The notes under the pieces: generated by a model
Database searches by the model: none
Seen by the model: the letters and a program-made list of their open reading frames with translations, nothing else
Told to the model about the DNA's origin: nothing
Program-made: the position numbers and the translations under genes
Virus record (IMG/VR): IMGVR_UViG_3300031918_000147
Location: 1 to 24,380 of that record
DNA: 24,380 nt
From: a virus
Reading direction: 5' to 3' (one strand)
Part shown: positions 1 to 9,454 of the stretch, piece by piece
Numbering within the stretch: the stretch's first letter is position 1
Layout of the letters: each line of letters opens with the position of its first letter

Positions 1-1
1 G

Positions 2-58
2 CAGTTTGACGAGAAAGGAAATGAAATCGTAATGTATATAAATATCAAGCAATTATGA
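2..58 (+). CDS. 3' end of an upstream gene (partial, unknown)
   Basis: An open frame enters from the left edge and stops at 56-58, giving an 18-residue C-terminal tail (ends YINIKQL). Its stop overlaps the start of the next small ORF by ATGA, the same coupling used by many genes in this window, which is the main reason to believe it is coding. Nothing can be said about function from so short a tail. Confidence 0.4.
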   Translation, partial: QFDEKGNEIVMYINIKQL

Positions 59-183
59 AAAACAGATGGCTACGTGAGCAACTAAGAAGATGGAAGGAGA
101 TACGGATGGTACTCAGGGTTAAGCGGATTATCCGAAAGGACGGGAAGCGAACGGTCGTATATCACTATAAGGGCACAGTATAA
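55..183 (+). CDS. small basic protein, 42 aa, unknown
   Basis: A 42-residue ORF starts on an ATG that overlaps the previous stop by four bases (ATGA at 55-58) and ends with TAA at 181-183. The product is strongly basic, with many Arg and Lys residues in its first 33 positions and tryptophans at 5 and 13. It has no membrane segment or signal peptide. Such small basic proteins often sit at the end of early phage operons and may bind nucleic acid, but that is only a guess. It is the last gene before a promoter-bearing gap, so it probably closes the upstream operon. No terminator is visible directly after it. Confidence 0.5.
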   Translation: MKNRWLREQLRRWKEIRMVLRVKRIIRKDGKRTVVYHYKGTV

Positions 184-222
184 TTATTTTCATCGAAAAG
201 CACCAAAATAGGAATTTTGTAT

Positions 223-230
223 TATCTTTG
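223..230 (+). promoter_or_regulatory. Bacteroidota -7 box (TATCTTTG)
   Basis: TATCTTTG matches the Bacteroidota -7 consensus TAnnTTTG, and the identical octamer occurs before the small terminase gene at 1643. No good -33 TTTG lies at the expected distance (about 197-204), so strength is uncertain. A start a few bases downstream would put the RNA 5' end almost exactly on the first arm of the inverted repeat at 235. Confidence 0.55.
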
Positions 231-234
231 ATAT

Positions 235-347
235 GCGAAACTCTTTAATGAACATTCCATGATTAGATTAACACACCATAAGGCTAAGGCCGATATTTTT
301 AGGTAGAGTTTCGCAGACTGTTCGCCTAAATTTATCGGTCTTGGTCT
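235..347 (+). ncRNA. structured leader RNA with pseudoknot topology (candidate)
   Basis: Two inverted repeats are interleaved here. Arm A (235-244) is perfectly complementary to A' (305-314), 10 bp. Arm B (281-303) pairs with B' (325-347) as 6 bp, a 2x2 U/U internal loop, then 15 bp including three G-U wobbles. A' lies in the loop of the B hairpin, so the order A-B-A'-B' is that of an H-type pseudoknot. The wobbles suggest selection on RNA rather than on a DNA site. The element lies between a -7 box and the HNH gene, so it could be a 5' UTR switch or an independent small RNA. I recognise no known RNA family. Pairing is seen directly; the function is inferred. Confidence 0.5.
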
Positions 348-363
348 TTGTAATAATGTAGAT

Positions 364-873
364 ATGGAAACAGAAATTTGGGAAAGCGTTGTAGGCTACG
401 AAGGATACTACGAAGTTAGCAGTTTGGGTCGGTTAAAATCAATTATGCACGGAGCAGGTAGAAGAATTGGAGTATTAAAACCAAGTATCAGTAGTAGTGG
501 CTATTATACTTGTGTTTTATATAAAGACTTTAAGAAGAGAACCATTTCAATGCACACTATTATTGCAATGGCATTTTTAGGGCACAGGCGGGAAGGGCAT
601 AAATTCGAGATAGACCACATAGACGGAGATAAAAAAAACAATAGGGTTGATAATCTTAGAATATTAACAACACGAGAAAACACAACCGAATATCAAAAAA
701 GGAATAAGAGCAAATCGTCAAAATACATAGGGGTCAGTAAGGATCCTGAATCCGATTGCTGGAAGGCTATTATCTATACAGAAAAAAGAAATAAATATAT
801 AGGGAGGTTTAAAACGGAAATAGAAGCAAGTGAGGCATATCAGAAAGAGCTATCTATCATAAGCACGGGATAA
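364..873 (+). CDS. NUMOD4-HNH-AP2 homing-type endonuclease
   Basis: This 169-aa protein has the three-part build of a free-standing phage HNH endonuclease. Residues 5-50 (EIWESVVGYEGYYEVSSLGR) are a NUMOD4 DNA-binding module. Residues 83-101 hold the HNH_3 core, with the D84-H85 metal-binding pair and the asparagines of the KNNRVDNLRIL segment. Residues 120-160 (KYIGVSKD, then YIGRF and EASEAY) form an AP2-like DNA-binding domain. Such proteins nick or cut DNA at a recognition site and spread by homing into uncut relatives. All three modules look complete, so it is probably active. It lies upstream of the terminase genes, a usual place for phage HNH genes. The structured leader at 235-347 ends 17 bases before its ATG, and a hairpin terminator follows at 898. 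Its target is unknown. Confidence 0.9.
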   Translation: METEIWESVVGYEGYYEVSSLGRLKSIMHGAGRRIGVLKPSISSSGYYTCVLYKDFKKRTISMHTIIAMAFLGHRREGHKFEIDHIDGDKKNNRVDNLRILTTRENTTEYQKRNKSKSSKYIGVSKDPESDCWKAIIYTEKRNKYIGRFKTEIEASEAYQKELSIISTG

Positions 874-906
874 CGTTGATTATTTGACTAATAATTTAAG
901 CACGGG
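860..906 (+). repeat. direct repeat TAAGCACGGG, two copies 37 bp apart
   Basis: The decamer TAAGCACGGG occurs at 860-869, inside the last codons of the endonuclease gene, and again at 897-906, where it forms the 5' arm of the terminator hairpin. Both copies are followed closely by TAAC. The second copy may be a duplication footprint or may allow an alternative RNA pairing. Confidence 0.55.
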
Positions 907-923
907 TAACACTGAGCTTTTTT
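898..923 (+). terminator. terminator after the HNH gene
   Basis: A hairpin can form from 898-905 with 912-919: four base pairs (AAGC/GCTT), one A-A mismatch and three more pairs including a G-U, with a six-base loop. Six T residues follow at 918-923. It is short and imperfect but well placed 25 bases after the endonuclease stop. Confidence 0.45.
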
Positions 924-930
924 GCGTTTA

Positions 931-968
931 GGAAAATAAAAAATGGCGGTAGGATTTTTCCCCCGCCA
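931..968 (-). terminator. terminator of the minus-strand gene pair
   Basis: Read on the minus strand, a perfect 6-bp GC-rich stem (963-968 with 944-949) with a 13-base loop is followed by TTTTTTATTTT (943-933). It lies 28 bases after the stop of the minus-strand gene ending at 997. It faces the + strand terminator at 898-923, so the two converging units are insulated from each other. Confidence 0.65.
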
Positions 969-996
969 CCGTTCTTTGAAATATGGATTTTCCCGC

Positions 997-1194
997 CTAC
1001 CACTCAATCCCGTAATGGGAAAAGGTCGAGCGTATGAATTTTTCCGCCAGGGGGCTGACATTGACCCGACCGTACAGGTAAGGCTCCAGGCTCCTGGCAT
1101 CCTTCAAACCGAGTTCAGCAATAAACAGCCTGCGGACTTCCATCCGTTGGGAGAATGGAAGCGATTGCAGGGTAGGGGCGATTGGCTTTTTCAT
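997..1194 (-). CDS. small protein, 65 aa, possible DNA-binding regulator
   Basis: The frame is open from 1242, but the internal ATG at 1192-1194 is the better start: it begins MKKPIAPTLQ and lies 20 bases after the stop of the upstream minus-strand gene. The 65-aa product is basic and mainly helical, with segments MEVRRLFIAELG, YLYGRVNVSPLAEKF and a final FSHYGIEW. This pattern of short helices resembles small helix-turn-helix regulators of Bacteroidota phages, but I see no diagnostic signature. It is probably the second gene of a two-gene minus-strand operon that ends at the terminator at 931-968. A role in lysogeny or host interference would fit its orientation against the late genes; this is inference only. 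Confidence 0.6.
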   Translation of the reverse strand: MKKPIAPTLQSLPFSQRMEVRRLFIAELGLKDARSLEPYLYGRVNVSPLAEKFIRSTFSHYGIEW

Positions 1195-1213
1195 AGTTGT
1201 AATTATTAGTGGT

Positions 1214-1507
1214 TTAAAATCCAAGTTCGTAAGAAAGAACATCTTCGATTGATTCGTAAGTATCAGTCAGGCCATTTTCAAGAACAACCCATTCAGCAAA
1301 CATCTGATTGTACCCAGATTTGCGCTGTTCGGTACGTTCTTGAATAAAGGACAACGTTTTGCAAGAATTATTCTGCTTATTGGCTGAATGGTCAGAAACA
1401 CGAATCTTAACAGTTTCACCATTGGAGTCTTCCATGTTGAAGTATGAAGAGTAACCTATTTCAAGGCCTTCTCTGATTGCTTCGGATGCTTCGTTGATAG
1501 TTTTCAT
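1214..1507 (-). CDS. hypothetical protein, 97 aa, first gene of the minus-strand operon
   Basis: The frame is open from 1612, but the ATG at 1505-1507 is preferred because a -7 box lies at 1556-1563, so a longer protein would start upstream of the transcript. The 97-aa product begins MKTINEASEAIREGLEIGY and ends EDVLSYELGF. It is acidic overall, with charged helices at both ends and a central polar stretch with several Asn and Ser. No signal peptide, membrane segment or known motif is visible. It is followed 20 bases later by the 65-aa gene and both run against the surrounding phage genes. The pair could be a moron (a cargo unit with its own promoter and terminator) or a small regulatory unit. 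Confidence 0.6.
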   Translation of the reverse strand: MKTINEASEAIREGLEIGYSSYFNMEDSNGETVKIRVSDHSANKQNNSCKTLSFIQERTEQRKSGYNQMFAEWVVLENGLTDTYESIEDVLSYELGF

Positions 1508-1552
1508 AGTGGTTGTTTTTAATACCTCAAAGATAGGGGTAAAATCAACACA

Positions 1553-1570
1553 ATACAAATATAATTGTAT
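1553..1570. promoter_or_regulatory. minus-strand -7 box inside an inverted repeat (possible operator)
   Basis: On the minus strand TATATTTG (1563-1556) matches the -7 consensus TAnnTTTG for the 97-aa gene, although a clear -33 TTTG is missing. The box lies inside the inverted repeat ATACAA-N6-TTGTAT (1553-1558 and 1565-1570). A repressor binding this repeat would block the promoter, so an operator is plausible. Confidence 0.45.
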
Positions 1571-1583
1571 GTTATAAAACACG

Positions 1584-1609
1584 TTATTGAAGATTATTGA
1601 AATTATTTG
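1584..1609 (+). repeat. three phased heptamers TTATTGA/TTATTGA/TTATTTG
   Basis: TTATTGA occurs at 1584-1590 and 1594-1600, followed by the near copy TTATTTG at 1603-1609. Spacing of 10 and 9 bases puts them on one face of the helix. They lie between divergent promoters and directly before the small terminase gene, so they may bind a regulator or the small terminase itself. Confidence 0.35.
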
Positions 1610-1642
1610 CATACAACCGTACTACTTTGCAAGAATATGCGT

Positions 1643-1650
1643 TATCTTTG
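1643..1650 (+). promoter_or_regulatory. -7 box for the terminase genes
   Basis: TATCTTTG followed by CA fits the Bacteroidota pattern TAnnTTTGCA. It ends 21 bases before the small terminase ATG. The nearest upstream TTTG (1626-1629) is only 13 bases away, shorter than usual, so a phage or host activator may be needed. Confidence 0.55.
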
Positions 1651-1671
1651 CATAAACTAACACTTTAGACA

Positions 1672-2136
1672 ATGGCACAAGGTAAAGCCTTCACAGAGGA
1701 CGAAAGGAACGCCATATTTACACAAATATGCAACAACGTTATAGAGAACCGCATATCGTTTAATAAAGCCGTAGAGGAGTCTGAAATAAGCCTTACGCTG
1801 TTTTATCAATGGATTGTATCATCTGAAGACCGTAAAACCCTGTATAACTACGCACGTGAGGTTCGGTCTGATGTTCTGTTTGAGGAGATTGTCGAGATTG
1901 CTGATACTACCGAGGATGGCGTTATAACGACAGAGAAGCCAAACGGCATAGAGATTAAGCACGCAGACATGATTGAACACAGGCGGTTAAAGGTCGATGC
2001 TCGTAAATGGGTAGTGTCTCGAATGAATCCAAAGAAGTACGGTGATAAACTCGATTTGTCAAACAATGGCGAAAGTTTTGCCCCAACCGTTACCATAACA
2101 CCTGAACTTGTAAAGTCGTTATCTGATAATCTGTAA
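1672..2136 (+). CDS. terS: terminase small subunit (TerS)
   Basis: The 154-aa protein has the length and build of a phage small terminase. Residues 1-50 contain a helix-turn-helix-like region (AIFTQICNNVIENRISFNKAVEESEISLTLFYQWI). A middle helical part follows, then the family-typical segment HRRLKVDARKWVVSRMNPKKYGDKLDL around residues 102-128, and a tail that would contact the large subunit. TerS binds the phage packaging site as a ring and delivers DNA to TerL. The ATG lies 21 bases after the -7 box at 1643-1650. TerL follows after 78 bases. The assignment rests on these motifs and on its place before TerL. Confidence 0.85.
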   Translation: MAQGKAFTEDERNAIFTQICNNVIENRISFNKAVEESEISLTLFYQWIVSSEDRKTLYNYAREVRSDVLFEEIVEIADTTEDGVITTEKPNGIEIKHADMIEHRRLKVDARKWVVSRMNPKKYGDKLDLSNNGESFAPTVTITPELVKSLSDNL

Positions 2137-2138
2137 CA

Positions 2139-2160
2139 TTTGCCCACTAAATAAGGCAAA
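2139..2160 (+). other. hairpin between terS and terL
   Basis: TTTGCC (2139-2144) and GGCAAA (2155-2160) can form a 6-bp stem with a 10-base loop directly after the terS stop. No T run follows on either strand, so it is not a standard terminator. It might act as an RNA-processing or stability element between the two terminase genes. Confidence 0.3.
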
Positions 2161-2214
2161 AATACTTACAGTTGTGTAAATCCTACCGGTACCGAATTAT
2201 CAATCTGTAACTAA

Positions 2215-3618
2215 ATGCCCAAAATCACAGAATTAACCCCCGAACTTGAAGCGGTGTTGCAGATTGCAGCCCGTCAAAACTTCTGGTGTTTCTGTTGTTT
2301 GTGGGATTGGGATTTTTTCAGGGTCAAACGCCGCTTTCTAAAGGAGGTGGCTTTCTTGTTTCAGGAAGTTGCGGACGCATACGCAGAAGGTCGTGCAATG
2401 TCCGTATCGGTGTCAATGCCCCCACGTGCAGGGAAATCCTACATAACAAGCCTGTTCGCTGCCTGGTGGCTCGGTACGCACCCTAAACTGTCTGTCATGC
2501 GTAATACATGCACGGCTTCACTGTATCAGGAGTTTTCATACGTTACCAGGGGGATTGTTCAGGACGTGAGATTTAAGCGTGTGTTTCCAGAAATCAAAAT
2601 CAAGAAGGACAAACAGAACCTTGATGGGTGGTCTTTGGAAACATCTAAGCAAGTAGGATACTTTGGCGGTGGTGTTGGTACGAACATCATAGGAAAGGGC
2701 GCAAACATAGCTATAACCGATGATTTGTACTCAGGCATGACGGATGCCCTTAGTGATGCCATAACGACCCGCACCGACCTTTGGAAGTCCTCAGAGCATA
2801 ACTCTCGCATGGAAAAGAATTGCCCTGAGATATTCATCGGCACTCGCTGGACAAAACGGGATGTACTTGGTAAGGCGATGGAATCCGGTAAGATTGAACG
2901 GTCTGTTATTATACCGGCACTGATTAACGGTGTATCGTTTTGCGATGATGTGAAATCAACAGACGAATATCTATCCATCCGACAGGAAGAGGGCGAGGAC
3001 TCGATGACATGGCAGTCGGAGTATATGCAGCAACCTATCGAGGCTAAAGGATTACTACTGCCTGAATCCGAATTACAGTTTGATGACTTCACCAGGTTAA
3101 CGCCTGACAATTTTATCTACCGCTTTGCTGTTGGTGACCCTGCGGACAATGGAGGGGACAAATACGCTATGCCGTTCTGTTACGTCCGATTCTCTGGCGC
3201 AGTGCCTCAAGTCTATGTTACGGATGCCATCTGCAATGGATACGGTATTGAGTACAATTCTGAAATGATACTACACCGATGTACTGAGTTGTTTATTGAT
3301 GACGTGTACATTGAATCTAACGGGGTGGGTTTGGCCTCTATTGTCCTACTTCGTAACCGACTGCATAAGAACACCACCTTGAAGCCGTTTAACTCTAGTG
3401 AGAACAAGGAAGTCCGAATCATGTCGCACTTTGAATTTATTAAGAGGTACTTTGTATTTGACAAGGACTACAAACAGAAACCCGAATACCGTCAATTTAT
3501 GCAGGACTTGACTTCGTATGTGAAGGGCGGACAGAACTCCCACAAGGCCGATGCTATTGATTGTTTGGCAACGGCGGCACAGGTTATCAAGGCAAAGTAT
3601 AGAAAGACTTTGTACTAA
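2215..3618 (+). CDS. terL: terminase large subunit (TerL), ATPase and nuclease
   Basis: This 467-aa protein is the DNA-packaging motor. The Walker A motif SMPPRAGKS is at residues 67-75, and the Walker B stretch NIAITDD at about 164-170, with Asp-Asp as in psiM2-like terminases. The C-terminal RNase H-like nuclease has an acidic triad, probably D308 (in VGDPADNGGDKY), E367 (in VYIESNGVG) and D446 (in HKADAIDCLA). TerL docks on the portal, hydrolyses ATP to pump DNA into the head, and cuts concatemers. Length is normal for the family and all key residues are present. It follows terS with a 78-base gap that contains a hairpin but no recognisable promoter. Confidence 0.95.
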   Translation: MPKITELTPELEAVLQIAARQNFWCFCCLWDWDFFRVKRRFLKEVAFLFQEVADAYAEGRAMSVSVSMPPRAGKSYITSLFAAWWLGTHPKLSVMRNTCTASLYQEFSYVTRGIVQDVRFKRVFPEIKIKKDKQNLDGWSLETSKQVGYFGGGVGTNIIGKGANIAITDDLYSGMTDALSDAITTRTDLWKSSEHNSRMEKNCPEIFIGTRWTKRDVLGKAMESGKIERSVIIPALINGVSFCDDVKSTDEYLSIRQEEGEDSMTWQSEYMQQPIEAKGLLLPESELQFDDFTRLTPDNFIYRFAVGDPADNGGDKYAMPFCYVRFSGAVPQVYVTDAICNGYGIEYNSEMILHRCTELFIDDVYIESNGVGLASIVLLRNRLHKNTTLKPFNSSENKEVRIMSHFEFIKRYFVFDKDYKQKPEYRQFMQDLTSYVKGGQNSHKADAIDCLATAAQVIKAKYRKTLY

Positions 3619-8461: not shown

Positions 8462-9454
8462 ATGGCAAAAGATTATGGTGCTGATCTATTAACTCAGCAA
8501 ACAAACAACACGGGATGGTCAGACAATGGCATCCTAATGGGTAAAATAGTAGGCATGATTCTTATGCCTAAATCCCTGCTTATTGCAGCTTCGGACTACG
8601 CAAGTACCACGGCTTTGGTAACCAAACTTCAAGAGCTAAGCACAGCGGTAAAATCCTCACGTATTTATCCGTTCCTTGGCCCGAACTCTATTGCTGACTT
8701 GACGGACGGAACTCCTGAAATCACACTCGAAGAATCTGGCTACGGCTTAATGATGGGTCAAACCATTAAGAAACGTATGCTGACTATTCGTACCGCCAAC
8801 AACGGCCAGGACTTGAACCAAAAATTGTACTCCTTCAACGGAAACAAATCTTTGGCCGTGGTTCTTTACGATGCCACCGGAAATCTGTATTTTGAACGCT
8901 CTGGAACATCCATAAAAGGTTCAGGGGTTCAGATGTTGGTCGATCAAACAAAACTGCCTTCTGGCGGTTCAAGCGCAGCTGTTCAGAACGTGAAGCTCAT
9001 CTTTGACGATGAAAACGTGTACATGAACGCAGACCGCTTCTTTGTATTTCCTTTGGGAAGTGCATTCTTAGCTTTGAACCGTCTTTCGGACGTTCTGCAC
9101 GGTATCCATAATGTCAAACTCCGTTTGATTTCTGCCACCACTACCGCTATCACGGTTGAGGCTTTAAGGGCTGACGACCTTAGGAACATGGCCGATGCTG
9201 ATATGTACGGAACCGCTCCACTAGCTATGCAGCCCAGTGCATGGCTTGCAGTGCTTGATTCATCCGGTGCCCCGATTACTCTTTCGGGCGTCACCATAAA
9301 CACCCTGAAACAGTTTGTACTTGCGAACGCCGCTTTTGCAACCGCCCCGCATTCTATAAGTATGCAAACCTCCGCCGCTCTGAAAGTCTTGAATGTAGGT
9401 TCAGCCACCACCGGAGGTTATGAATCCAACACAATCACGGCAACACCTGCATAA
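8462..9454 (+). CDS. major tail (tube) protein, probable
   Basis: The 330-aa product begins after an A-rich leader (ACTAAACAAAA). It is rich in Ala, Thr, Leu and Gly, with long beta-forming stretches such as SLAVVLYDATGNLYFERSGTSIKGSG and DENVYMNADRFFVFPLGSAFLALN. The place between neck genes and tape measure is that of the tail tube protein, which stacks in rings round the tape measure to form the non-contractile tail. The last 80 residues (about 250-330) form a Thr/Ala-rich extra domain that could be exposed on the tail surface, like the Ig-like additions of other tube proteins. It has no sheath-like partner gene, which fits a siphovirus. Confidence 0.7.
   Translation: MAKDYGADLLTQQTNNTGWSDNGILMGKIVGMILMPKSLLIAASDYASTTALVTKLQELSTAVKSSRIYPFLGPNSIADLTDGTPEITLEESGYGLMMGQTIKKRMLTIRTANNGQDLNQKLYSFNGNKSLAVVLYDATGNLYFERSGTSIKGSGVQMLVDQTKLPSGGSSAAVQNVKLIFDDENVYMNADRFFVFPLGSAFLALNRLSDVLHGIHNVKLRLISATTTAITVEALRADDLRNMADADMYGTAPLAMQPSAWLAVLDSSGAPITLSGVTINTLKQFVLANAAFATAPHSISMQTSAALKVLNVGSATTGGYESNTITATPA

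Follow-up and report, generated by a model that had tools for sequence, protein, structure and literature searches.

The 24,380-base stretch of phage DNA analysed here (the window) contains a pseudoknotted RNA element directly 5' of an HNH endonuclease gene, and relatives with different letters occupy the same place 5' of HNH genes in other phages. We think it slightly better than an even bet (about 55%) that this element is a small structured RNA which moves as a module with free-standing phage homing endonuclease genes, locks its own 5' end to a downstream hairpin, and limits nuclease output. An earlier note made from the window sequence had proposed a regulatory leader or small RNA tied to the endonuclease, a suggestion that is supported by the finding that relatives keep the architecture 5' of homing endonucleases.

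In the window, all parts of the element lie on the + strand. A −7 promoter box, TATCTTTG at positions 223–230, stands upstream of the entire structure, matches the Bacteroidota consensus TAnnTTTG, and recurs in relatives with unchanged spacing. K, as we call the 5' arm of the pseudoknot helix (GCGAAACTCT, 235–244), begins at the predicted +1 and is the exact reverse complement of AGAGTTTCGC at 305–314. The earlier note had placed this repeat correctly, and it is in fact one pair longer: T234, if transcribed, would add a pair, giving a perfect 11-bp helix (11/11) between 234–244 and 305–315. K', the reverse complement of K (AGAGTTTCGCA, 305–315), sits inside the loop of a second hairpin, H2, which is separated from K by an AT-rich spacer, L1 (245–279). 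In the core of H2 (281–303/325–347), 21 of 23 positions pair, three of them as G-U, and there is a tandem U-U mismatch; the earlier note had given the same positions and pair counts, and the stem extends slightly, to arms at 280–304 and 324–348 that interleave with K:K'. The 3' arm is terminator-like in relatives and has a weak U-tail in the window copy, where H2 stops 15 nt 5' of the AUG and a link (349–363) leads from its base to the start codon. No Shine-Dalgarno sequence was found in window positions 330–363, and a clear −33 TTTG is missing from the window copy. The homing endonuclease gene (364–873) encodes a 169-residue protein with NUMOD4 (residues 4–52) and HNH_3 (residues 64–107) domains by Pfam, a weak AP2 match (residues 119–159) below the Pfam cut-off, and a PHROGs assignment as HNH endonuclease. 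Further 3' are ORFs for the terminase small subunit (1672), a terminase-large-like protein (2215), and the portal (3670). Just 5' of the RNA, positions 55–183 hold a small basic 42-residue ORF with no family match.

Several results confirm that the interleaved structure in the window is real. First, a scan of both strands of the window for interleaved stems gave a single match, the element itself, with a score of 68.2 on the + strand and nothing on the − strand; when the whole window was Markov-shuffled 100 times, the top score was 56.2. Second, the + strand folds with z = −5.1 to −6.3 (0 of 200 shuffles reach the fold at z = −5.1), whereas the − strand gives z = −1.2, and the + strand RNA is therefore the relevant molecule. 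Third, the K:K' duplex is worth −15.8 kcal/mol, which outweighs the 4.1 kcal/mol cost of opening a competing inner hairpin; energetically, the two stems can therefore form together. An inverted repeat that acts at the DNA level, in packaging, replication, or as a homing site, or that arose by chance, is extremely improbable: the window copy does lie upstream of terminase genes, but strand-specific folding, G-U pairs, promoter register, and the covariation described below argue for pairing in RNA, as had been claimed, and other copies sit at unrelated sites. For the latter reason, a packaging- or terminase-linked role was rejected.

The only DNA relatives of the window RNA itself were fragments of the same, identical strain, and we therefore sought conservation via the neighbouring gene. 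An exact 16-mer from the window had ten matches in viral_contigs besides the identical-strain contig L074, but these had no further similarity and look like chance; comparison with named phages and plasmids gave no real DNA match, and among TerL relatives there was neither an HNH relative nor an element at the corresponding place. The architecture does recur 5' of HNH genes of other phages: 13 of 155 HNH upstream regions pass our descriptor at a score of 47. Of 3100 shuffles only 2 pass, as does 1 of the 484 regions that precede other ORFs at these loci. Most HNH genes are without the module. The members were found in uncultivated phages and on a few contigs assembled from metagenomes, and share an order of parts that runs from the TAnnTTTG box through K, an AT-rich spacer, H2 with K' in its loop, and usually a U-rich tail to the start codon, with K:K' pairing kept across about 20 variants of differing sequence.

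These members are of two types. In the kissing type, to which most belong (for example L087, L096, L191, L199, and L209), K is displayed in the 8-nt loop of a small hairpin, H1, and seven bases of this loop pair with as many in the loop of H2, forming an intramolecular kissing complex. Members of the window type lack a substantial H1 and carry K right at the 5' terminus; besides the window, they include L160, both L186 copies, L203, L204, L252, and L339:12380. The letters of the window RNA have no diverged homologue, and we count it as a member by the architecture and register that it shares with the others: it has the box, K at +1, a perfect K' in the H2 loop, and an endonuclease start downstream, whereas the U-rich tail, clear in most relatives, is weak.

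Some superficially similar sites were rejected. L357 (IMGVR_UViG_3300030685_000353) has four pattern sites on one contig, none with a convincing K'; there the promoter-like TATATTTGTATTGTAATTAA...ACAATA is repeated within 6.9 kb, and L326, from the same contig, has a further match to this pattern with no kissing element. In L002, the HNH gene is directly preceded by a structured leader of another kind, and L002 was not counted as a member; this leader (L002:250–340) resembles a three-way junction, with GGAGACCC...GGGTTCTCC around two hairpins. In the isolate Flavobacterium phage FL-1 (L429:2870–3000), a TATCTTTG box is followed after about 100 nt by a terminator-like hairpin and then by the start of a GIY-YIG gene, but no K:K' was found.

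Promoter and fold are separate lines of evidence, and they agree. TAnnTTTG is the −7 consensus of Bacteroidota (PMC7366714, PMC9723704), and in Flavobacterium this box covers −12 to −5 (PMC9723704), which places +1 five bases past the box. The box noted earlier at 223–230 is present, and this spacing predicts +1 at position 235 of the window. Of the eight window-type members, six, the window among them, have a K whose first base falls exactly on the predicted +1; in the kissing type, K begins at +5 to +7 with a single exception. Since the descriptor behind most members already demanded that a box lie no more than about 22 bases from K, only the exactness of this register is new information. 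From the promoter type, the hosts are probably Bacteroidota. The assignment to this phylum rests on the promoter because searches of 395 Bacteroidota genomes gave two weak matches with model R1 and, by pattern search, one match that is likely due to chance; as the first pass scores few candidates, this scarcity does not show that the element is absent.

The pairings also covary. In an alignment of 12 kissing-type members, RNAalifold finds the kiss helix unprompted, and six of its seven pairs have changed on both sides. The kiss and H2 helices together contain 46 double-change cells compared with 17.4 in shuffles (0 of 500 reach 46), although these cells are not independent events because some alignment rows are related; the test was also run on all four helices. 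Sliding the partners by one column lowers the paired cells from 84% to below 45%. In one pair of close relatives, L291 and L361, the RNAs are 93% identical and K/K' differ by compensating substitutions (ATTGCGG/CCGCAAT in the former, GTTACGG/CCGTAAC in the latter). The earlier note had named a lack of covariation as what would refute it, and the compensatory change in relatives is strong. Its alternative of a phage switch found no support. No conserved alternative (anti-terminator) helix is seen in the alignment of the RNAs, and for this reason we do not claim that the RNA switches.

To which genes is the RNA linked? In a gene-blind scan of viral_contigs, with a pattern built from the promoter box and H1 only, all clear non-redundant matches precede nuclease genes, which by Pfam encode HNH_3, classical HNH, or GIY-YIG proteins. 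RNAs that are 93–99% identical precede proteins that are only 18–36% identical (L209/L297, L310/L382, L291/L361, and L087/L277), indicating that the RNA is exchanged as a module with a boundary near the start codon. At a metallophosphatase/peptidase locus, HNH-less phages have flanking genes 0–20 nt apart and no RNA, whereas HNH-bearing phages have both the RNA and the HNH gene; at this locus, the two therefore come as a unit. The same RNA in L275/L391/L392 and in L277 accompanies HNH genes that are 53% and 36% identical, at two insertion sites, the metallophosphatase/peptidase locus and a position between a terminase-small-like and a terminase-large-like ORF. In L186, the 3' end of the integrase-like gene upstream is repeated after the HNH gene (2058–2120), which suggests, from the sequence, that this cassette entered near the end of the integrase-like gene.

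The tight linkage of RNA and gene would also be expected if the nuclease bound the RNA, either for autoregulation or for an RNA-guided activity like that of HEARO/omega RNA. We regard this as very unlikely, because near-identical RNAs precede non-homologous HNH and GIY-YIG proteins, K varies freely, no IscB/TnpB-like protein is present, and Rfam has no HEARO match. More generally, an Rfam search at the gathering score and at E values up to 5, which the earlier note had called for, gave no matching family, including HEARO and the group I intron models. A group I intron carrying a homing endonuclease was rejected on this result and because the cassettes sit between genes.

A few copies precede genes for other proteins, or no gene at all, and nuclease control is thus not the only role. 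The copy in L221 precedes a RecT-like gene, itself followed by an HNH gene; the second L186 copy (L186:2185) precedes a gene of an unknown PHROG that resembles replication organisers; and a copy at L386:10353 precedes a small ORF and a gene similar to the one in L186. Finally, L291:8257–8360 is a stand-alone copy with perfect H1, K, and H2, a terminator-like end with a GGCGGGGTTTTTTATTTTT tail, and no ORF immediately following. Between this copy and an ORF at 8677 lie some 0.3 kb of non-coding DNA; that ORF is followed by an HNH gene and a terminase-like ORF.

These copies bear on the main rival that we keep, in which the element is an independent small RNA that acts in trans, for example with mRNAs of the phage or its host as targets, or further copies of the element through K/K', and the nuclease is a read-through passenger. 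Besides the stand-alone copy and those before the RecT-like gene and the probable replication gene, this idea gains from the observation that, within one subfamily, the RNA is more conserved than the nuclease (98% versus 53% identity for L087/L275). We nevertheless judge it unlikely, given the uniform position of the clear gene-blind matches before nuclease genes and the start codon that nearly always follows 5–25 nt past H2. A bolder version, to which we would assign only a small chance, is that these elements are mobile RNAs of a new class: cassettes encoding a self-locking small RNA with kissing loops, which circulate among Bacteroidota phages, capture unrelated nucleases for their spread, and use the fast-changing 7-nt kiss to recognise or exclude other copies in trans, much as plasmid copy-control RNAs do.

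Under the preferred reading, a control module for nuclease expression, transcription would start at the predicted +1 of the Bacteroidota-type promoter, and the first nucleotides, K, presented either as a bare 5' end or in the 8-nt H1 loop, would pair with K' in the H2 loop. H2, whose base abuts the nuclease start codon, would both terminate transcription intrinsically and block the initiation of translation, with the K:K' lock tying the 5' end of the RNA to the terminator hairpin. Most transcripts would then stop as a stable RNA of about 100 nt, nuclease mRNA would arise only by read-through, and output of a potentially harmful nuclease would probably stay low. Among the members, the last 20 bases before the start codon contain a mean of 10.4 T, compared with 5.45 for other ORFs (p = 4e-9). 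Termination is least certain in the window itself, because the tail TTTGTAATAATG is a poor U-run and the −33 box is missing; a terminator scan of window positions 1–2300 found none. With so weak a U-tail, the translation block may weigh more in this copy. The fold might instead raise expression, by shielding the nuclease mRNA from decay at its 5' end, and the first transcribed bases do lie within H1 or the K:K' helix in nearly all members; such a role seems improbable, because a hairpin such as H2 with a U-rich tail, placed straight before the AUG, is what one expects of a terminator or translation block.

There are precedents for individual features. The homing endonucleases I-TevI, I-TevII, I-TevIII, segB, and mobE of the T4 family are restrained by RNA hairpins that sequester the Shine-Dalgarno sequence and are bypassed from a late promoter inside or below the hairpin, and in Aeromonas phage 25 a stable hairpin ends just before the initiation region of seg43(25) (PMC2988022). 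Like those hairpins, the present RNA is a structure directly 5' of phage HNH or GIY-YIG homing endonucleases that is proposed to limit expression. Unlike them, it is a pseudoknot or kissing loop that begins at the +1 of its own promoter, its last hairpin is terminator-like, no Shine-Dalgarno is involved, and one RNA backbone is common to unrelated nucleases. The strong H2 and mostly U-rich tail before the start codon recall intrinsic terminators and attenuator leaders, in which the K:K' tertiary lock of 5' end to terminator loop has no counterpart; a conserved anti-terminator is lacking here. HEARO/omega RNAs are non-coding RNAs directly 5' of IscB-type HNH genes and so resemble the module in position, but ours is far smaller, differs in structure, and precedes no RuvC/IscB protein, the window encoding a NUMOD4-HNH_3 protein instead. 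In ColE1, RNA I and RNA II form 7-bp loop-loop (kissing) complexes; here loops pair over a similar length, of about 7 bp, and both belong to one molecule.

Among the papers searched, none describes this element. It thus seems to be a so far undescribed RNA module for the control of mobile nuclease genes, found before genes of two unrelated nuclease families. Because the kiss sequence varies while its pairing stays, the mechanism is directly testable by paired mutations. Among the selfish genes of phages, those for homing endonucleases rank with the commonest, and it is mainly from T4-like phages that we know how the nucleases stay harmless. A shared module with exchangeable HNH and GIY-YIG nucleases, reshuffled at the start codon, would make expression control a mobile part with a history of its own.
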